Below, piece after piece: positions 18,514 through 29,165 of a stretch of DNA of 64,000 nt (positions within the stretch are counted from its first letter, which is position 1; each line of letters opens with the position of its first letter). This stretch comes from Ameyamaea chiangmaiensis. Its GTDB lineage: Bacteria; Pseudomonadota; Alphaproteobacteria; Acetobacterales; Acetobacteraceae. The stretch covers positions 1-64,000 of the forward strand of contig NZ_JABXXR010000002.1 of NCBI RefSeq assembly GCF_013376175.1, in the 5' to 3' direction. A program made the position numbers and the translations under genes. The notes beneath the pieces are model-generated. The model had not been told where the DNA came from, did no database searches, and saw only the letters and a program-made list of their open reading frames with translations.

Positions 18514-18653
18514 CGGAGCGGGGTGGTTCCTGTCGTGAGTTGCATGACGGTACCACCTTATCTAGACTGGTGCGGAATTCGTGTGAAGCGCGTCCGGTCT
18601 CGCTTTCGCCATATGTTCCGACCCATCGAGTAACCGACCAGACACGCGCCGCG

Positions 18654-19400
18654 ATGCCCCCCCTGATCATCATTCCCGCCCGGATGGCGTCCACGCGCCT
18701 GCCAGGCAAGCCTCTAGCCGATATCGCCGGTCGCCCCATGATCGTTCATGTTGCCGATCGCGCGCGCGCCGCGGCCCTTGGGGAGGTCGTCGTCGCGGCG
18801 GCCGAGCCGGAGATCGCGGCCGCCGTTGAAGCCGCCGGCGTGCGCGTCGTGCTGACCGATCCCGCTCTTCCATCCGGTTCGGACCGCGTGCATGCGGCTG
18901 CTGAGGCGGTCGATCCGCACGGGCGGCACACCGTGATCATCAACCTCCAGGGCGACCTGCCGGTGTTCGACCCGTCCGATCTGCGCCAGGCCCTCGTGGC
19001 GCTTGACGGCAGCGACGCCGATGTGGGCACGATCGCCGCCCCGATCCGGGACGCGGACGAGGCCGCAAGCCCTTCGGTGGTCAAGATCGCCTGCGCGTTG
19101 CAGCCCGAGGATATCGGCACGGACCGGGCCGTTCGTGCGCTGTATTTCTCGCGTTCGTCCATACCCGCCAATACCGGCCCTCTCTGGCACCATGTCGGCG
19201 TGTACGCCTGGCGCCGGTCTGCCTTGCGCCGTTTCGTGACCCTGCCGCCCAGCACACTGGAACGGCGCGAAAGTCTGGAACAGCTGCGCGCGCTTGAAGA
19301 CGGGATGAGCGTCGGCTGCGCGGCGATCGCGAACGCGCCGTTTGGCGTCGATACGCCCGCCGATCTTGAGCGCGCGCGACGCGCCCTGGCGGCGTCATGA
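18654..19400 (+). CDS. kdsB: 3-deoxy-manno-octulosonate cytidylyltransferase (CMP-Kdo synthetase)
   Basis: A 248-residue cytosolic enzyme that activates Kdo with CTP for attachment to lipid A. The nucleotide-binding IPARMASTRLPGKPLADI at the N-terminus, INLQGDLPVFDP (normally QGDEP) and HVGVYAWRRSALRRF are KdsB signatures. The ATG at 18654 is the correct start; in-frame codons upstream show no family match. The stop overlaps pheA by four bases. The change from the usual QGDEP to QGDLP in the metal-binding loop deserves note. Confidence 0.92.
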   Translation: MPPLIIIPARMASTRLPGKPLADIAGRPMIVHVADRARAAALGEVVVAAAEPEIAAAVEAAGVRVVLTDPALPSGSDRVHAAAEAVDPHGRHTVIINLQGDLPVFDPSDLRQALVALDGSDADVGTIAAPIRDADEAASPSVVKIACALQPEDIGTDRAVRALYFSRSSIPANTGPLWHHVGVYAWRRSALRRFVTLPPSTLERRESLEQLRALEDGMSVGCAAIANAPFGVDTPADLERARRALAAS

Positions 19401-20269
19401 CCGACGACGCGAGCATTCCGGGCGACGCACCCATCATCGCGTTTCAGGGTCTTCCGGGCGCGTATTCCGAGATGGCGTGCCGGGGGGCGCGTCCTCGGTG
19501 GCGCACGCTGCCCTGCGCCACGTTCGCGCAGGCGATCGACGCGGTGCATGAAGGTCGTGCGGATCAGGCGATGCTGGCTTGTGAAAACACTCTGGCGGGA
19601 CGCGTGCCCGATATCCATGCGCTTCTGCCTCAGGCGGGTCTGCATATCGTGGGCGAGCATTTCCAGCGGGTGGAGCATTGCCTGCTGGGCGTTCCGGGCG
19701 CGCGGATCGGCGACATACGGCGCATTCTGACCCATCCGGTGGCCATGGCGCAGGTGCGCGATGTGGTGCGGGAACTCGGGGCCGAGCCGGTGACGGTCTT
19801 CGATACGGCCGGTGCGGCCGAGATGGTCGCGCACGCCGCCGACCCCCGCGACGCTGCCGTCGCGTCCGAACTCGCGGCCGAGTTGTATGGCCTTGATATC
19901 CTGCGTCGGAATATCGAAGACGCATCGCACAACACCACGCGGTTCTATATCGCCTCGCGCGAACCCGTGCGGCCACCGGTCGGTCCCGACGTCATGACGA
20001 CGGTCCTGTTCCGGGTGAGCAACACGCCCGGCGCGCTCTACAAGGTTCTCGGCGGTTTCGCCACCAACGGTATCAACATGACGCGCCTCGAGAGCTACAT
20101 GACCGAGGGCTCTTTCGCGGCCACTCAGTTCATGCTCGACGTCGAAGGTCATCCCGACGAGCCCGCTCTCGCGCGCGCCCTGAGTGAACTGACCTTCTTC
20201 GCCCGCGACTATCTTCTGCTGGGCGTCTATCCGGCGTCCCCGTTCCGAAAACGTGGCACGGCCGTCTGA
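19397..20269 (+). CDS. pheA: Prephenate dehydratase
   Basis: A 290-residue stand-alone prephenate dehydratase making phenylpyruvate for phenylalanine synthesis, without a fused chorismate mutase. The catalytic domain (about 10-190) includes AFQGLPGAYSEMAC, ACENTLAGRV and the NTTRFYIASRE motif with the essential Thr/Arg/Phe. The C-terminal ACT domain starts around residue 203 (VLFRVSNTPGALYKVL) and has LESYM where enteric enzymes have the phenylalanine-binding ESRP. The ATG overlaps the kdsB stop (19397-19400). Confidence 0.94.
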   Translation: MTDDASIPGDAPIIAFQGLPGAYSEMACRGARPRWRTLPCATFAQAIDAVHEGRADQAMLACENTLAGRVPDIHALLPQAGLHIVGEHFQRVEHCLLGVPGARIGDIRRILTHPVAMAQVRDVVRELGAEPVTVFDTAGAAEMVAHAADPRDAAVASELAAELYGLDILRRNIEDASHNTTRFYIASREPVRPPVGPDVMTTVLFRVSNTPGALYKVLGGFATNGINMTRLESYMTEGSFAATQFMLDVEGHPDEPALARALSELTFFARDYLLLGVYPASPFRKRGTAV

Positions 20270-20412
20270 GACGGGCCGGAAAAGATTTCGTCCTTTATGG
20301 CGACCATGGGTCGCCCTATGAACGCAGAAGACGCGCCACGTCCGGGTATGAAGACACCGGTGGAGGCAGCAGGAAGGCCGCGTCGCAAAAGCGGTCTACG
20401 GGAGAAAAAGCA

Positions 20413-21303
20413 GTGGACGAGGTTATGTTCACAGGGTCGCTGACGGCCCTTGTCACACCAATGAACCGGGATTCGTCCCTGGACATGGAGTCGTTCGGCC
20501 GTCTGATCGACTTCCAGATCGACAACGGGACGTCGACCCTGGTGCCGGCCGGCACGACGGGCGAGAGCCCGACCTTGTCGCATGAGGAACATCGTCGGGT
20601 CGTGCGTTTCGCGGTCGAGCGGGCGGCGGGGCGCGTGCCGGTTCTGGCCGGGGCCGGCTCCAACAGCACGCACGAAGCGATCTCGCTGGCCCGCGATGCG
20701 CGCGAGGCCGGTGCCGACGCAGCTCTGGTCGTCGTGCCCTACTACAACAAGCCAACGCAGGAAGGGCTGTATCGCCACTTCATGGCGATCGTGGAGCAAG
20801 CGCAGATACCGGTTGTCATCTACAATATTCCCGGCCGCTCCGTCATCGACATGTCGGTGGACACGATGGCGCGTCTGGCACGTCATCCGCTGATCGTGGG
20901 CGTCAAGGATTCGACAGCCAACCTGATGCGACCACTGGAAACGCGGGCCGCGATCGACAAGCGTTTCAACCAGTTGTCGGGCGAGGACGGGACCGTGGTG
21001 TCCTTTCTGGCGGCTGGTGGCGACGGGTGCATCAGCGTGACGTCCAATGTGGCGCCGCGCCTGTGTGCCGATCTTCACGCGCACTGGCAGGCGGGGGATG
21101 CGCGTGCTGCGATGGCGGTTCAGGACCGGCTGCTTCCGCTGCATGGCGCCCTGTTCTGTGAGAGTAACCCGGGGCCGGTAAAGTATGCGGCATCCCTTCT
21201 CGGGCTGGCTGGTGAGACGTGCCGTTTGCCGTTGGCCCCGCTTTCCAACGAGTCCAGGGCCAAGGTGCGTGATGCCCTGACCCGCGTCGGCCTGTTGGGC
21301 TGA
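20413..21303 (+). CDS. dapA: 4-hydroxy-tetrahydrodipicolinate synthase
   Basis: A 296-residue class I aldolase that condenses pyruvate and aspartate semialdehyde at the start of the lysine/diaminopimelate branch. Motifs are GTTGESPTLSHEEH, VVPYYNKPTQEG, IYNIPGRSV (catalytic Tyr neighbourhood) and the Schiff-base lysine in VGVKDST. The GTG at 20413 is preferred because a GGAG site sits eight bases before it; the ATG at 20425 (MFTGSLTAL) is an equally family-like alternative. smpB begins three bases after the stop. Confidence 0.94.
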   Translation: MDEVMFTGSLTALVTPMNRDSSLDMESFGRLIDFQIDNGTSTLVPAGTTGESPTLSHEEHRRVVRFAVERAAGRVPVLAGAGSNSTHEAISLARDAREAGADAALVVVPYYNKPTQEGLYRHFMAIVEQAQIPVVIYNIPGRSVIDMSVDTMARLARHPLIVGVKDSTANLMRPLETRAAIDKRFNQLSGEDGTVVSFLAAGGDGCISVTSNVAPRLCADLHAHWQAGDARAAMAVQDRLLPLHGALFCESNPGPVKYAASLLGLAGETCRLPLAPLSNESRAKVRDALTRVGLLG

Positions 21304-21306
21304 CCC

Positions 21307-21798
21307 ATGGCAGCAAAGAGTAAAAGTGGTCTGATCGCGCACGGTATCGCGGCGCAGAATCGGAAAGGGCGCTTCAACTACAGCATCGACGAAACCGTCG
21401 AGGCGGGCATCGTACTGAAGGGGCCGGAGGTGAAAAGTCTCCGGCTGGGTCGTGCGATGATCACCGAGGCTTTTGCAGGCGAACGCGACGGCGAACTATG
21501 GCTGTTCAACGCCTATATCCCCGAATACCAGAGTGGCGTGCTGTCCCGCTTTGACACGCGGGCGCCGCGCAAGCTGCTGCTGCACAAGAAGCAGGTCGCT
21601 CATTTTCTGGGGGCCGTGACACGGGACGGCGCCTCGCTGGTGCCGCTCGACATCCATTTCAACCAGCGTGGTGTCGCCAAGCTGACTCTCGGCCTGGGTC
21701 GAGGGCGCAAGAAAGAAGACAAACGGCATGCGATCGCGGAGCGCGACTGGCAGCGCGACAAGGCGCGGCTGATGCGGAACAAGGGTCGCGACGACTGA
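21307..21798 (+). CDS. smpB: SsrA-binding protein SmpB
   Basis: A 163-residue RNA-binding partner of tmRNA in rescuing stalled ribosomes. The N-terminal core (AAQNRKGRFNYSIDETVEAG, LKGPEVKSLRLG) and NAYIPEYQSGV are SmpB motifs, and the basic C-terminal tail (KKEDKRHAIAERDWQRDKARL) is the part that enters the decoding centre. The gene follows dapA with a 3-bp gap, a conserved alphaproteobacterial neighbourhood. The tmRNA gene ssrA is not in this window. A bidirectional terminator follows. Confidence 0.95.
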   Translation: MAAKSKSGLIAHGIAAQNRKGRFNYSIDETVEAGIVLKGPEVKSLRLGRAMITEAFAGERDGELWLFNAYIPEYQSGVLSRFDTRAPRKLLLHKKQVAHFLGAVTRDGASLVPLDIHFNQRGVAKLTLGLGRGRKKEDKRHAIAERDWQRDKARLMRNKGRDD

Positions 21799-21838
21799 TC
21801 GGTCCTTCAGTCGGACGTCTGAACGTCTTGATGGACAT

Positions 21839-21876
21839 AAAAAAAACCCTCCGAGCTCGCGCCCGGAGGGTTTCTT
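21839..21876. terminator. Bidirectional intrinsic terminator between smpB and the cold-shock gene
   Basis: A perfect 10-bp stem (21844-21853 with 21864-21873) is flanked by eight A residues on the left and a T-rich stretch on the right. It can therefore terminate both the plus-strand dapA-smpB unit and the minus-strand cold-shock gene. Confidence 0.92.
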
Positions 21877-21897
21877 GTTACAGCGCGAAGGCGCTGA

Positions 21898-22584
21898 TCA
21901 GGCGAGGCTGACCGAAGCGGCCTCGGGGCCTTTCTGACCCTGAACCACCTGAACGTTCGCTGCCTGTCCCTCGTTGAGCGAGGTCAGACCGGAGCGCACC
22001 AGAGCGGACGCGTGGACGAAAATGTCCTTGCCACCGCTGTCAGGCGTGATGAAGCCGAAGCCCTTGGTGGCGTTGTACCACTTCACGATACCGCGCATTT
22101 CCTCGGCGTGAGCAGTGTCGGGGGCAGGGCGCGAGAAGCGCGTGCCGAATTCACCGCGGGGGCCACCGAAACCGGGGGCGGGGCTGCGGGGGCGCTCGGG
22201 CTGTTCCGTGCTCTGGTCGACGGAGAGAACCTCGGCGACCTGACGGCCCTTCGGACCCTGGCCGATGCGCACGACCAGGGTTGCGCCCGGCCCGACGCTT
22301 TCGTGGCCGCTGCGCGACAGCGCGTTGGCGTGCAGGAACACGTCGCCCGTGCCATCGGCGAGCTCGACGAAGCCGAAGCCCTTCTCGCCGTTAAACCACT
22401 TCACGGTCGCGTTGATCTCGGGGCCCGATGCGATGACCTGCGGGCCGCCACCACCACCGGGACCCGGACGCCGGGGCGCCGACGGTCCGCGATCACCAAA
22501 GGATGGCGAAGGCGCCATGAAATCATCGTCAAACCCGCCGCGGCGCGGGAAACGGGAGCTGCGGTCGGTCCTGTTACTTCTCAA
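21898..22584 (-). CDS. Double cold-shock-domain protein
   Basis: A 228-residue protein with two cold-shock domains, about residues 57-122 and 162-228. Each has the RNP1-like core: [15 protein letters not shown] with VFLHANAL, and [15 protein letters not shown] with IFVHASAL. Such proteins bind single-stranded RNA or DNA and act as RNA chaperones. The N-terminus and linker are Gly/Pro/Arg-rich and probably disordered. No ATG is available near the beginning; TTG at 22584 is used here, with ATG at 22518 as the alternative, so the start is uncertain. The gene stands alone with a long upstream gap. Confidence 0.88.
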
Positions 22585-22916: not shown

Positions 22917-23939
22917 ATGAAAAACGGTCGAATTTCGGGCTCGCTCGCATGGATGGGTGCCCTCGGCGCAGTGGCCACGGTCAGCTGTTCGATACCTGCG
23001 CGCGCCACACCTCTCCAGGATCCGTATGGCACTTGGACGCTGCAGGGGGAAAACGACGCGGTCTCGACCCTGAAGGGCACGTCGGACCAGTATTACACCA
23101 GCGGCCTGCGCGCGAACTGGACGTCCGGTACGGACAATCTTCCCGCACCGATCGCAACCGTCAACCGGGCGATCCTGGGGCAGGGGGTCCAGCGGATCAG
23201 CATCGGCGTTCAGCAGCTGATTTTCACGCCGCACGATACCCAGTCGCCCGTGCCGGTCGCCGGCGATCGGCCGTATTCAAGCCTTCTTCTGGGCACGATC
23301 AACCTGATCAACGACACGGACCTGTCACGCAGCGTGTTCGGCATCCAGTTCGGCGTGATGGGACCAGCCGGTCTCGGGCGGCAACTGCAGAACGGTTTTC
23401 ATGGCGCTATCGGGGACACCAAGAATCTCGGCTGGCACCACCAGCTCCAGAACCAGCCGATCTTTCAGGTTCAGGGCGGCCGCACCTGGCGCCTGCCTCT
23501 CGTCACCGCGTTCGGTATCTCCATGGATATGCTGCCGTCCGTATCGGGCGCCGTCGGCGACTATCGCATTTATGGCGACGTGGCCGACACCGTCCGTATC
23601 GGCCAGGGTCTGAACAGCGATTTCGGCACGCCGACGATCGGCCCGGGCACCGACGGCACGGACGCCTATGTTCTGTCGCGGCCCATCGCGTGGTACGCGT
23701 TCGGTGGCGTCGAAGGACAGGCCGTGGCCTACGACGCGTCCCTGCAAGGCAATACCGCTCGGTCCAACTCCCTGCACGTCGACAAGAAGTGGGACGTGGG
23801 TGAGTTCCACGCGGGCGTGGCGGTGATGTGGCACGGCATGCGCCTGTCCTACAGCCAGGTCTGGCAGACGCAGCAGTTCGAGACCGCGCGTTCGGGACTG
23901 TTTAACTACGGCTCTCTGGCCCTGTCCGTGAAGTTCTGA
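22917..23939 (+). CDS. LpxR-like outer-membrane lipid A deacylase (DUF2219 family)
   Basis: A 340-residue protein resembling LpxR, an outer-membrane beta-barrel that removes the 3'-acyloxyacyl chain of lipid A. The signal peptide (MKNGRISGSLAWMGALG to ARA, cleavage near residue 30) leads into WTLQGENDAVS with the family Asn-Asp pair at 46-47. Later markers are SDQYYTSGLRANW, FTPHDT with DRPYSSLL, FGVMGPAGLGRQLQN with His162, GWHHQLQNQP and a C-terminal beta-strand ending in Phe. Family enzymes usually have a Glu at the position of the second Gln in LQNQP, so activity is not certain. The next gene begins 5 bp later. Confidence 0.82.
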   Translation: MKNGRISGSLAWMGALGAVATVSCSIPARATPLQDPYGTWTLQGENDAVSTLKGTSDQYYTSGLRANWTSGTDNLPAPIATVNRAILGQGVQRISIGVQQLIFTPHDTQSPVPVAGDRPYSSLLLGTINLINDTDLSRSVFGIQFGVMGPAGLGRQLQNGFHGAIGDTKNLGWHHQLQNQPIFQVQGGRTWRLPLVTAFGISMDMLPSVSGAVGDYRIYGDVADTVRIGQGLNSDFGTPTIGPGTDGTDAYVLSRPIAWYAFGGVEGQAVAYDASLQGNTARSNSLHVDKKWDVGEFHAGVAVMWHGMRLSYSQVWQTQQFETARSGLFNYGSLALSVKF

Positions 23940-23943
23940 CGTC

Positions 23944-24927
23944 GTGCTGCGCGTCGGACTGGTAGGGGCAGGCCACTTCGGCCGTTTCCATGCCCTGAAA
24001 ATCGCTGCCAACCCGCGCGAGCATCTGGTCGCCGTCCTCGATCCCGATCCCGAGCGCGCGGCGGCGGTGGTCGCGCAGGCTGGTGGTGCCGTGGTGCACA
24101 GCCTCGACGATCTCCTCGCGCAGTGCGAGGCGGTCGTGATCGCTGCCCCCGCCGAGCATCACTTTTCCCTGGCCGGGCGGGCGCTGGAGGCCGGTCGGCA
24201 TGTGCTGGTCGAAAAGCCGATCGCGGCGACACTCGAGCAGGCCTCTGCCCTGACCGCACTGGCGCGGGCCAAAGGGCGCGTCCTTCAGGTCGGGCACCTC
24301 CTGCGGTATTCGGCCGAGCACGCGGCCATCACCCGGCGGATCCATCGTCCATTATACATCGAGGCCACCCGCATCGCGCCGTTCAAGCCGCGCGGGACGG
24401 ATGTGTCGGTCATCCTGGACCTCATGATCCATGATCTCGATCTCGTACTCGCGATCGTTGACTCGCCGATTGAGTCCGTCGACGCGATTGGGGCGGCCGT
24501 CAGTTCGGCGCACGAGGATATCGCCAACGCGCGTGTCCGCTTCACAAACGGCTGCGTCGCGGCCATCACCGCCAGCCGCATCTCGCTGAAGACCGAGCGA
24601 CGGATGAGGCTGTTTTCGGAAGAGGGTTATCTCTCGGCCGACTTCGTCAAACGCGAACTGAGTATGATCGGCCGAGATCGCGGCGTCCCATTGCCCGGCA
24701 CGGGCGGTTTTCGCCGCGAAGCCGTCACGTGGCGTGACCATGACAATCTCGCCGCCGAGCATGACGCTTTCGTGGCAAGCTGTCTCGACGGGGCACCGGT
24801 GAAAGTCGATGGCGAGGCCGGACGCCGGGCTCTCGAGGCTGCCCTTGCCGTTACCACGAGTATTACGGAGTCGCGCAACCGCTGGACGGCCGCCGGCCTT
24901 ATCGGAGATCCCACCTCGGAACTCTGA
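23944..24927 (+). CDS. Gfo/Idh/MocA family oxidoreductase, GnnA-like
   Basis: A 327-residue NAD(P)-dependent sugar dehydrogenase. The Rossmann motif GLVGAGHFGRFHA is at the N-terminus, followed by LVEKPIA near residue 93, with the conserved Lys, and MIHDLDLVLAIV near residue 162, with the catalytic-type Asp/His. The overall pattern is like GnnA, the UDP-GlcNAc 3-dehydrogenase that starts synthesis of 2,3-diaminoglucose lipid A, but many sugars are possible for this family. The start is GTG at 23944, only 4 bp after the LpxR-like gene, so the two are almost certainly one operon. The GnnA role is inference from this context. Confidence 0.8.
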   Translation: MLRVGLVGAGHFGRFHALKIAANPREHLVAVLDPDPERAAAVVAQAGGAVVHSLDDLLAQCEAVVIAAPAEHHFSLAGRALEAGRHVLVEKPIAATLEQASALTALARAKGRVLQVGHLLRYSAEHAAITRRIHRPLYIEATRIAPFKPRGTDVSVILDLMIHDLDLVLAIVDSPIESVDAIGAAVSSAHEDIANARVRFTNGCVAAITASRISLKTERRMRLFSEEGYLSADFVKRELSMIGRDRGVPLPGTGGFRREAVTWRDHDNLAAEHDAFVASCLDGAPVKVDGEAGRRALEAALAVTTSITESRNRWTAAGLIGDPTSEL

Positions 24928-24955: not shown

Positions 24956-26767
24956 CTACCTTTCCAAGGCCTCACGTTTTGTCTCCAGCTGCAGCCAGAG
25001 TTCCTCGGCGGCCGTCAGGCGATGCTGCGTATCCTCCAGCGTGGCGGTCAGGCGCGCGAAAGCGTTCGGGTCACGACTGTAGAGGCCCGCGTCAGAGAGA
25101 CGTTCGCGCAAGGAGATGATCTCCTGCTCCAGCGTCTCGATCTGTCCCGGGAGCTGTTCGAGGGCGTGTTTATCCTTGAAAGACAGCTTGTTCGCCGACT
25201 TTTTTCCACCTTTGCCCGAGCTTCCTGCTGCCTTTGCCGGCCTGGTGTCTTCGGCGGTGGCTTCGCGTCCGGACGGTGCGGTCAGGCCGTTCTGGGCCAG
25301 CATGTCGCTATATCCACCGGCATATTCGACCCAACGCCCATCGCCCTCGGCGGCGAGAATGGAGGTCGAAACCCGATCGAGGAAGTCGCGGTCATGGCTG
25401 ACCAGAACGACAGTGCCCGCATACGACGCCAGCATGTCCTGCAACAGGTCCAGCGTCTCCAGATCGAGATCGTTGGTGGGTTCGTCCAGCACCAGAACGT
25501 TGGAAGGCCGCGCCAGAGCGCAGGCGAGCAGCAGTCGGCCGCGTTCGCCTCCTGACAGGGCCCCGACGGGTGTCCGGGCCTGCTCGGGACGGAACAGGAA
25601 GTCCTTCATGTATCCGATGACGTGTCGCTTGTCGTCGCCGACCTGAACCATGTCGCCGCCGCCGCCGGTCAGCGTATCGGCAAGCGTGCGATCGGGGGAG
25701 AGAGTGGCGCGTTGCTGATCGAGGGTCTGAACCTGCAACGCAGTGCCGATCCGCACCTCGCCGTCATCGGGCTGGTCGATACCGGTCAGAAGGCGGAGCA
25801 GCGTCGTCTTGCCCGCACCGTTCGCGCCGACGATCCCAAGCCGATCGCCCCGCAGGACGCGCAGATCGAGATCGCGGATGATCGTTCGCTCCCCGTAGCG
25901 GCGCGTGGCGTTCTCGGCGACCACGACCAGCTTGCCCGACGTTGCCGCCGTCTGGGCGTCCAGTTTCACGCTGCCCTGTGCCCGCACGGTGTCGCGGCGC
26001 GTCTGCCTCAGGGCCGCCAGCTCGGCGACGCGGCGGACGTTTCGCTTGCGGCGTGCCGTCACGCCATAACGCATCCAGTCTTCTTCGCGGGCAATCTGCC
26101 GATCGAGCTTGTGGGCGTCGCGCTCTTCCTGCTCCAGAACCTCCTCGCGCCATGTCTCGAAACGGCCGAACCCCTGATCGAGCCTGCGCGTGATGCCCCG
26201 GTCCAGCCACACGACACTGCGCGACAATGTTTCCAGAAAGCGGCGGTCATGGCTGATCACCACCAGAGCGGACCGAAGCGAGAGCAACTCGCGCTCCAAC
26301 CACGCGATCGTCGGCATGTCGAGATGATTGGTCGGCTCATCAAGAAGGAGCAGGTCCGGTTCGGCCGCCAGCGCCTGCGCAAGAGCGCAGCGGCGCGCCT
26401 CGCCGCCCGAGAGGTTACCGATCAGTTCGTCGCCGGTCAGCCCGAGTTCGGCCAGGAACGACCGGGCGCGGTAGTCTTCGTCGTCCGCCAGACCGTCGCT
26501 GGCCGCCTCGAATGTCGTTGCAAACGCGCTGAGATCGGGTTCCTGCCGGACGTAACGCACAGTCGTGCCCGGCTGCAGGAACCGGGTGCCGGAGTCCATC
26601 TTGATGTCGCCCGCCGCGATGCGAAGCAGCGTCGATTTGCCGCTGCCGTTGCGTCCGACGAGGCAGAGTTTTTCACCCGGAGAGACGCCAAACCCCGCGC
26701 CATCGAGAAGCGGCTTGCCGCCGAGCGTGAGGGTGATGTCCTGGAGGAGCAGAAGCGGAGGTGCCAT
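24956..26767 (-). CDS. uup: ABC-F family ATPase Uup
   Basis: A 603-residue soluble protein with two ABC ATPase cassettes and no membrane segments, which places it in ABC-F. Cassette one has GRNGSGKST near residue 39, LSGGEARR and LLLLDEPTNHLD; cassette two has GANGAGKTT near residue 318, LSGGERGR and LVLDEPTNDLD. A C-terminal basic linker and coiled coil (about 510-603) bind DNA in E. coli Uup; family members act on ribosomes or DNA structure. It lies 46 bp downstream of otsA on the same strand and converges with the dehydrogenase gene. Confidence 0.92.
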   Translation of the reverse strand: MAPPLLLLQDITLTLGGKPLLDGAGFGVSPGEKLCLVGRNGSGKSTLLRIAAGDIKMDSGTRFLQPGTTVRYVRQEPDLSAFATTFEAASDGLADDEDYRARSFLAELGLTGDELIGNLSGGEARRCALAQALAAEPDLLLLDEPTNHLDMPTIAWLERELLSLRSALVVISHDRRFLETLSRSVVWLDRGITRRLDQGFGRFETWREEVLEQEERDAHKLDRQIAREEDWMRYGVTARRKRNVRRVAELAALRQTRRDTVRAQGSVKLDAQTAATSGKLVVVAENATRRYGERTIIRDLDLRVLRGDRLGIVGANGAGKTTLLRLLTGIDQPDDGEVRIGTALQVQTLDQQRATLSPDRTLADTLTGGGGDMVQVGDDKRHVIGYMKDFLFRPEQARTPVGALSGGERGRLLLACALARPSNVLVLDEPTNDLDLETLDLLQDMLASYAGTVVLVSHDRDFLDRVSTSILAAEGDGRWVEYAGGYSDMLAQNGLTAPSGREATAEDTRPAKAAGSSGKGGKKSANKLSFKDKHALEQLPGQIETLEQEIISLRERLSDAGLYSRDPNAFARLTATLEDTQHRLTAAEELWLQLETKREALER

Positions 26768-26813
26768 GGCGGCGTTCTCGCCCGTTCCGCGCCCCGGCGC
26801 AAGTCAGCCCTTC

Positions 26814-28205
26814 TCAGGCGGCGCCCGACCCGCGCGCCTGCAACAAGGCGTCGAGAAAGGACTCTCCCCACATCAGCGGCGTGCGTGAGGAGATGACGTG
26901 CCAGTTCGCCTCCCAGCGGCGACGGCGCTCTTCCCTTGCCATCGACAGGGCACGATGGATGGCATCGGCCACTTCGTCGCCGTCGAACGCGTTAACCAGC
27001 AGGGCGTCCTTCAACTGTGCCGCGGCGCCCGCGTAACGCGACAGCACCAGAACGCCAGGATCGTCCCCGTCCTGCGCCGCCACATATTCCTTGGCGACAA
27101 GATTCATGCCATCGCGCAACGGGGTTACCAACCCGACACGCGCCGTGCGCATGATTCCGGCCAGATGGGCACGTGCGACGGGACGGGTCACAAAGCGCAG
27201 GGGCGTCCAGGCCGGCATCGCCAGCTCCGCGTTCAGGGCACCCGACAGGCGCTCGAGCTCTTCCCGCAGGGACTTGTAGATCTCCACGTCCTGGCGGCTC
27301 GACGCGGCGACTTGCAGGAAGGTGACGCGTTCCTGCCATTCGGGATGCTTGTCGAGAAAAGAGCGGTAGCCGTTGATCCGCCGCCGGATTCCTTTCGTGG
27401 GATCCATTCGGTCGGCGCCGATCATCAGGGTCGAGCCCAGGAGCGATTCCGAAAAGCGTCGTATGGCCGTGGTGTCACTCTCCTCGGCGGCGGTTCTGGC
27501 AAATCCGGGCGCGTCGATCTCGACGGGGAATGCGCCGACATGCACCGTCCGGCCGCCGCATGTGACGACATTGTTGCCGGCCGTTTCGCCACCCGCCAGG
27601 CGCTCGACACAGGCGACGAAATTCTGCGCGTCATGGCTGGTCTGAAACCCGACCAGATCGGCCTGCATGAGCTGGCGCAGAAACGTCGCGGCCTCCGGGA
27701 TGGTCGAGAGGATATCGGGCGAGGGGAAAGGCGTATGAAGAAAGAAACCGATTGGCACCTGCACGCCGCGTGTCCGTAGCGCGGCGGCCAGAGGCACGAG
27801 GTGATAGTCGTGGATCCACACCACGTCTCCGGGCCGGATCATGTCCTTCAGCGTGGTGGCGAAGCGCGCGTTCACGGTGCGATAGACATGCAGGCTGTGA
27901 CGGTCGAAACTGATCTGTTCGGGCAGGGAATGGATCAGCGGCCAGAGCGTCGCGTTGGAGAAGTTGGCGTAATAACCCTGATATTCGTCGGGGGTGAGGT
28001 TGATGGTGGCGTACTGGACGCCGCCCTCCTCCACGATGGCGGGGGCAGTGTCGTGTTCGGCATTGTCCGCGATGTCGCCGCTCCAGCCAAACCAGAGTCC
28101 GCCGCGACGGGCCAGAAGATCGTGAAGCACGACAGCGAGACCGCCGGCTTTTTCTCCCGCCGTTGGTACGGGTACTCGGTTCGACACAACGATCAAGCGA
28201 CTCAT
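26814..28205 (-). CDS. otsA: Trehalose-6-phosphate synthase
   Basis: A 463-residue GT20 glycosyltransferase making trehalose 6-phosphate from UDP-glucose and glucose 6-phosphate, a step in stress-protectant trehalose synthesis. Motifs are LIVVSNRVPVP, GGLAVVLHDLLARRGGLWFGWSG, WIHDYHLVPLA, DRMDPTKGIRRRING with the Arg/Lys phosphate binders, and LRDGMNLVAKEYVAAQ. No otsB phosphatase gene is adjacent. The gene lies downstream of phyR, and a site resembling the EcfG-sigma promoter lies 49-74 bp upstream of the start, which would put otsA under the general stress response. Confidence 0.95.
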   Translation of the reverse strand: MSRLIVVSNRVPVPTAGEKAGGLAVVLHDLLARRGGLWFGWSGDIADNAEHDTAPAIVEEGGVQYATINLTPDEYQGYYANFSNATLWPLIHSLPEQISFDRHSLHVYRTVNARFATTLKDMIRPGDVVWIHDYHLVPLAAALRTRGVQVPIGFFLHTPFPSPDILSTIPEAATFLRQLMQADLVGFQTSHDAQNFVACVERLAGGETAGNNVVTCGGRTVHVGAFPVEIDAPGFARTAAEESDTTAIRRFSESLLGSTLMIGADRMDPTKGIRRRINGYRSFLDKHPEWQERVTFLQVAASSRQDVEIYKSLREELERLSGALNAELAMPAWTPLRFVTRPVARAHLAGIMRTARVGLVTPLRDGMNLVAKEYVAAQDGDDPGVLVLSRYAGAAAQLKDALLVNAFDGDEVADAIHRALSMAREERRRRWEANWHVISSRTPLMWGESFLDALLQARGSGAA

Positions 28206-28253
28206 GCGGCGTCTCCGTCTTGTTTCCGCCGTGGGGCGGCAAGGCCCGGAACG

Positions 28254-28279
28254 AACGTCCGAACCCGGGCAAACGTTTC
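28254..28279 (-). promoter_or_regulatory. Candidate EcfG-type general stress promoter for otsA
   Basis: On the minus strand GAAAC (28279-28275) is followed after exactly 17 bases by CGTT (28257-28254). The alphaproteobacterial EcfG consensus is GGAAC-N16/17-CGTT, so there is one mismatch. The distance to the otsA ATG leaves a leader of about 40 bases. Confidence 0.5.
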
Positions 28280-28319
28280 GCCGCTGATGCCGGACCTGGG
28301 GCTTCCGGGGGCGCGTGCC

Positions 28320-29048
28320 TTAGGGCATCCGCACCCCGCCGGTCACCGCCTGATAGGTGGCGATGGCCAGCGTGACCGGATCGAACGGCTTGGTGATGAC
28401 GAACGCGGGTTCGACACGTTCGCCCGTCAGCAACCGTTCCGGATAGGCCGTCACAAACACGACCGGCACCCTGTGATCCTGCATGATCCGCGTGACCGCA
28501 CTGATGCCGTCGCCGCCGCCACCGAGGTTGATGTCGGCAAGGATCAGGCCCGGACGCCGGAGCAGCGCCAGTTCGACGGCGTCCTTTTCGGTGTGCGCGA
28601 CACCGGCGACGCGGTGGCCGCACTGGGCGACCAATTCCTCGATGTCCATGGCGATGATCGGCTCGTCCTCAATGATCAGGACGTCCGTGCGCGCGCTCTC
28701 GCCGAGGGCGGCGCGCGCATCAACCAGCGTGGCGCGCGCGTCGTCCAGCGACAGTCCGACGATGGTGGAGGCGTCGTCCAGCGGCACCTCCTCCAGCATC
28801 GTCAGCAGGAGAAGCATTCGCCCTGCGGCACTCAGGCCGCCCGGAGGGTCGTCGCCGCCGGCGCGCAGGCCGATCTCGCGGTAGAGCGCGTTACGCGGGG
28901 TCAGTTCGGTCTGATCTCTGACCATGAGATCACGAAGGCTCTCGGCGACGGCCAGATCACCTCGGGCCTGACTTCCTGTCAGCGCGCGCGCATAGCGCCG
29001 CGCGTAGGGAAGGGCGCGGACAAAATCGTGTCTCCGCGATTCGACCAT
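28320..29048 (-). CDS. phyR: General stress response regulator PhyR
   Basis: A 242-residue anti-anti-sigma response regulator. The N-terminal sigma-like domain (about 1-118) mimics an ECF sigma factor, and the C-terminal receiver domain (about 122-242) begins DVLIIEDEPIIAMDIEEL, with the phosphoacceptor Asp in LILADINLGGGGDG and conserved Thr/Lys in FVTAYPE and VITKPF. When phosphorylated, PhyR binds NepR and frees EcfG. The ATG at 29048 is preferred; a TTG lies two codons upstream. It is divergent from the first sigma gene and sits beside nepR, ecfG and the kinase, the usual cluster. Confidence 0.95.
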   Translation of the reverse strand: MVESRRHDFVRALPYARRYARALTGSQARGDLAVAESLRDLMVRDQTELTPRNALYREIGLRAGGDDPPGGLSAAGRMLLLLTMLEEVPLDDASTIVGLSLDDARATLVDARAALGESARTDVLIIEDEPIIAMDIEELVAQCGHRVAGVAHTEKDAVELALLRRPGLILADINLGGGGDGISAVTRIMQDHRVPVVFVTAYPERLLTGERVEPAFVITKPFDPVTLAIATYQAVTGGVRMP

Positions 29049-29165
29049 AAGCAATGTGTCTCCGTTTCGCGCCAGATACGGCCGGCCCGTGCGGCGATTA
29101 CAGCGGACGTTGGGAGAGAACGCAAATCTCTGTTAAGCGAGGGTTTCGCAACGGCACCCGGCGGC

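Follow-up and report, generated by a model that had tools for sequence, protein, structure and literature searches.

Adjacent lpxR and gnnA genes in Ameyamaea chiangmaiensis: probable neighbours by rearrangement of two conserved gene blocks

In a stretch of 64,000 nucleotides from Ameyamaea chiangmaiensis (the window; positions 1 to 64,000 of contig NZ_JABXXR010000002.1, here contig C2), a gene for an LpxR-family outer-membrane lipid A deacylase is directly followed by a gene for a predicted UDP-GlcNAc 3-dehydrogenase, GnnA. We put the probability at about 85% that these are a genuine GnnA and an LpxR-family deacylase which became neighbours through a lineage-specific reciprocal rearrangement, with no partnership between them needed to explain their position. 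Both genes are new members of known families, united by that rearrangement. The earlier note, made from the DNA letters, had named the two products correctly and had held a coupled lipid A remodelling unit to be plausible; the names were upheld by the analyses given below and the unit was not.

The lpxR and gnnA genes

The lpxR gene (22917-23939, + strand) is intact from its ATG at 22917 to the TGA ending at 23939 and encodes 340 amino acids. Residues 22-340 of the product matched nearly the full Pfam LpxR model (PF09982) with an E value of 2.4e-78, and a PDB sequence search retrieved Salmonella LpxR (3fid) with an E value of 8e-16. The activity of Yersinia LpxR requires N9, D10, Q118 and H122 (PMC3486919); the equivalents of this catalytic core are kept as N46, D47, Q158 and H162 according to the alignments with the family and with 3fid, the first two being set by motif because the latter begins further on. 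The placement of the S/T34 equivalent is uncertain in the alignments. The stretches around N46, D47, Q158 and H162 are conserved across the family, with N-A in place of N-D at the second position in some relatives. The PF09982 domain and the four core residues are thus shared with Salmonella LpxR and with the 3'-O-deacylase LpxR of Yersinia enterocolitica, whereas the region of the basic pair K67/R68, which touches Kdo in simulations (PMC6260217), corresponds to an alignment gap in the Ameyamaea protein. The lipid A also differs, as that of Acetobacteraceae has Ko in place of Kdo, and its distal 3' acyl chain is expected to be amide-linked. LpxR was present in 293 of the 397 family genomes; no report on LpxR in Acetobacteraceae was found among the papers covered. 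A gene with two cold-shock domains (21898-22584) adjoins lpxR divergently, and most of the closer relatives covered keep this pairing.

The gnnA gene (23944-24927, + strand) is likewise intact, running from a GTG at 23944, immediately before the conserved LRVG, to the TGA ending at 24927, and encodes 327 amino acids. A profile search revealed the product to be a Gfo/Idh/MocA protein. Its top PDB sequence match was 7bvj, entitled as GnnA of Acidithiobacillus ferrooxidans, with an E value of 6e-62, the runner-up following at 9e-19. An AlphaFold2 model (mean pLDDT 94.6) was closest to 7bvj and 7bvk, with TMt values of 0.93-0.96 and 40-42% identity, compared with at most 27% identity for the other sugar oxidoreductases listed. 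The structure comparison proposed in the earlier note therefore gave GnnA as the closest fold and not an unrelated sugar oxidoreductase. The NAD-binding motif, the EKP lysine and the DLMIHD histidine are all present; with A. ferrooxidans GnnA the protein shares the fold, the EKP and DLMIHD motifs and the scored invariant residues, and the two are about 40-42% identical along almost the entire chain.

Five Gfo/Idh/MocA genes were found in the genome (one each on contigs C2, C140 and C18, and two on C26), of which only that on C2 is GnnA-like. Its product retains 37 of 37 scored positions marking lpx-linked GnnAs, while the four paralogues retain 15-23. In a tree, it grouped with GnnAs whose genes adjoin lpxA/gnnB or lpxB and apart from these four paralogues, which have very long branches there. 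A gnnA-type gene was present in 382 of the 397 family genomes and in one copy in A. chiangmaiensis; a better GnnA beside lpxA, looked for genome-wide, was not found. The matches of both lpxR and gnnA lie far above chance and both genes are genuine. Judged by sequence and modelled fold, the predicted identity of the dehydrogenase gene as a genuine gnnA is firm.

Gene order and the joint

The two genes lie on the same strand with a gap of 4 bp (cgtc, 23940-23943, without strand), as had been noted earlier, and this gap is the joint between two ancestral blocks, A and B. Mapping the window genes onto relatives separated them into kdsB-pheA-dapA-smpB-cspA-lpxR and gnnA-ABC-F-(otsA)-response regulator. 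In the window, block A, which carries lpxR, comprises kdsB, pheA, dapA and smpB on the + strand and the two-domain cold-shock gene on the − strand (18540-22584), and its order beside lpxR was also found in eight relatives. Block B follows gnnA on the − strand (24956-29054) with an ABC-F ATPase gene (24956-26767), an otsA-like gene (26814-28205) and a response regulator gene (28320-29054), and its order after gnnA recurs in other relatives, six of which serve as examples. In several relatives a convergent recG comes after lpxR, in some with an extra gene between, and gnnA is divergent from secD-secF, the identities of recG, secD and secF being read from sequence.

None of the 56 relatives with both genes has lpxR and gnnA adjacent, and the closest spacing on one contig was 25 kb; 14 of these genomes carry both genes on a single contig and the other 42 on different draft contigs, where adjacency is excluded less strictly. 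LpxR was also absent from the flanks of about 1.5 kb around the 29 gnnA loci closest to that of the window, and no LpxR match was found within about 5 kb of gnnA in 80 fetched loci from elsewhere. A conserved lpxR-gnnA operon was rejected on the synteny of the 56 relatives and the 29 nearest gnnA loci.

The A. chiangmaiensis genome holds recG and secD/secF together on another contig, C47, where recG runs to about 1343 and secD begins near 1508; this is the reciprocal joint. A conserved element of the form GTTGCA...GGCATGTTC upstream of secD has been retained on C47 and may be a promoter or a regulator site. The same succession of GTTGCA and, about a dozen bases on, GGCATGTTC was observed at 1340-1510 of C47 and, likewise upstream of secD, in four relatives.

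Taken together, the neighbours lpxR/recG and secD/gnnA would have been exchanged for lpxR/gnnA and recG/secD by a lineage-specific reciprocal rearrangement. The simplest route would be a single inversion that broke the chromosome at the lpxR-recG and gnnA-secD boundaries; the two new joints are seen in the sequence, and the earlier order that it requires, with gnnA 3' of lpxR on the opposite strand, was found in six family genomes. That lpxR by itself was inserted ahead of gnnA was ruled out by the ancestral neighbours which lpxR retains on its far side, and a simple deletion between the blocks by the survival of the segment ends recG and secD, joined on C47. Excision and reinsertion of the recG-secD segment could formally give the same order but would take more steps than the inversion.

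The remaining pathway genes

In A. chiangmaiensis, lpxA is located on contig C62 with lpxI adjoining and fabZ and lpxD upstream, the latter two being named from sequence. The gnnA gene on C2 is neither beside lpxA nor beside the DegT aminotransferase gene, which is located on C84. This differs from A. ferrooxidans, where gnnA lies in an lpxA-gnnA-gnnB cluster; in Ameyamaea it is set apart from lpxA and the candidate gnnB, directly after lpxR. Among the fetched gnnA loci from elsewhere, a DegT gene was found within about 5 kb in 70 of 80 and an lpxA-like match in 67 of 80, while in the family relatives, where compared, gnnA was on another contig than lpxI or distant from it. Adjacency of gnnA to lpxA/gnnB is common but not required. 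In a record of Legionella adelaidensis plasmid 12 (5992-8092), a GnnA-like gene overlaps lpxB by a few bases.

The GnnB-type aminotransferase, which the earlier note had advised seeking elsewhere in the genome, has a candidate in the sole full-length DegT aminotransferase. Its closest matches were 4qgr and the C3-keto sugar aminotransferase WbpE, and its identity to lpx-linked GnnBs is 36-46%. An orthologue is present in 118 of 120 family genomes, a conservation as wide as that of gnnA. By these sequence comparisons, the C84 DegT is likely to be GnnB; the assignment is less certain than that of GnnA because the gene adjoins a 4,6-dehydratase-like gene. The GnnB-like DegT gene is in conserved tandem with this neighbour, a gene for a WbpM/PglF-like UDP-sugar dehydratase, named from sequence (locus L016, 5374-8495, and relatives L208-L225). 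In this setting, the aminotransferase may serve two sugar pathways, or solely the one other than that of GnnB. Two small genomes of the family, G028 and G115, with sizes of about 1.9-2.1 Mb, retain gnnA and DegT orthologues, far diverged (41% and 47% identity), and LpxR was not found in G028.

The presence of diaminoglucose in Acetobacter lipid A, mentioned in the earlier note, agrees with the literature: diaminoglucose is the distal sugar in Acetobacter pasteurianus lipid A (PMC7956469, a review), and Granulibacter bethesdensis lipid A contains 2,3-diaminoglucose (GlcN3N) as the distal sugar, a putative gnnA (ABI62343.1) and gnnB having been named for it (PMC8036547). The same pathway was thus proposed in that member of the family, in a paper without mention of lpxR; synteny and family-wide conservation are added here. 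The statement that the arrangement had not been described holds for the lpxR-gnnA joint, which is new, and does not hold for GlcN3N and candidate gnnA and gnnB genes, which are already published for Acetobacteraceae.

By homology and the published lipid A of the family, GnnA would oxidise UDP-GlcNAc at C3, and a separate GnnB-type aminotransferase, probably the C84 DegT, would then yield UDP-GlcNAc3N. The lipid A pathway would subsequently place an amide at C3.

Coupled unit or rearrangement joint

That the dehydrogenase is another Gfo/Idh/MocA sugar oxidoreductase and not GnnA is very unlikely. The gene does lie outside the lpx cluster of the genome on C62, and naming it GnnA directly from family models failed, as the sole match, an archaeal NCBIfam equivalog for UDP-GlcNAc 3-dehydrogenase, scored 144 bits, far below the cut-off of 450. 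Against this stand the wide margin by which GnnA is the top match in both PDB sequence and fold, the retention of every scored GnnA position, the clustering with lpx-linked GnnAs, and the known production of GlcN3N lipid A by Acetobacteraceae. Separate locations of the two genes in the real chromosome, with the joint as an assembly error, would fit an order common to no relative and a draft assembly of 374 contigs that is 94.6% complete. Such an error is nonetheless highly improbable, since C2 and C47 carry matching reciprocal joints, both of them flanked by intact gene ends, and a chance misassembly would have been needed twice in the same manner. The genus is represented by one genome among those compared, so that the joint is known from that strain. 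With the reciprocal joint present on a separate contig, the adjacency is very probably real in the chromosome.

A selected lipid A remodelling operon, in which LpxR trims ester chains and GnnA installs amide chains under one control, would agree with the shared strand, the 4-bp gap, and two families which both work on lipid A and are both common in Acetobacteraceae. The pair is, however, absent from the relatives, the far side of each gene retains its ancestral neighbours, and the reciprocal joint on C47 accounts for the adjacency without selection. The chemistry also speaks against it: LpxR hydrolyses the ester that holds the 3'-linked acyl chain, and a distal GlcN3N would turn that bond into an amide. 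Were both to act at the distal sugar, LpxR and GnnA/GnnB would not work in series but would compete for one position, because GnnA/GnnB would convert the 3' ester cleaved by LpxR to an amide. On these grounds we consider the coupled operon very improbable. Equally doubtful is a version in which the rearrangement itself was selected, with gnnA coming under lpxR control so that GlcN3N content follows the deacylase, and with LpxR as a proofreader stripping 3' ester chains. Speculatively, such a proofreader would act on lipid A lacking the amide-forming sugar; the co-occurrence of LpxR, in 293 of 397 genomes, with near-universal GnnA leaves room for this role.

On the favoured reading of a reciprocal rearrangement, secD would have kept the promoter-side region, leaving gnnA without the secD-side regulatory region. 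Transcription now probably reaches gnnA from lpxR, whose stop codon is perhaps followed by translational reinitiation at the gnnA GTG. A simple scan of the + strand between 22500 and 25000, weak evidence in this bacterial group, revealed no sigma-70-like promoter.

The apparent lipid A unit is thus most likely a rearrangement joint, and what is new is solely this lineage-specific joint, which probably places gnnA under lpxR transcription. Acetic acid bacteria have a low-stimulating, diaminoglucose-containing lipid A, for which the literature covered holds no genetically tested pathway; the analysis maps for this group a gnnA that is near-universal, together with a likely gnnB. It further raises the question of what LpxR targets where the distal sugar should bear a 3' amide.
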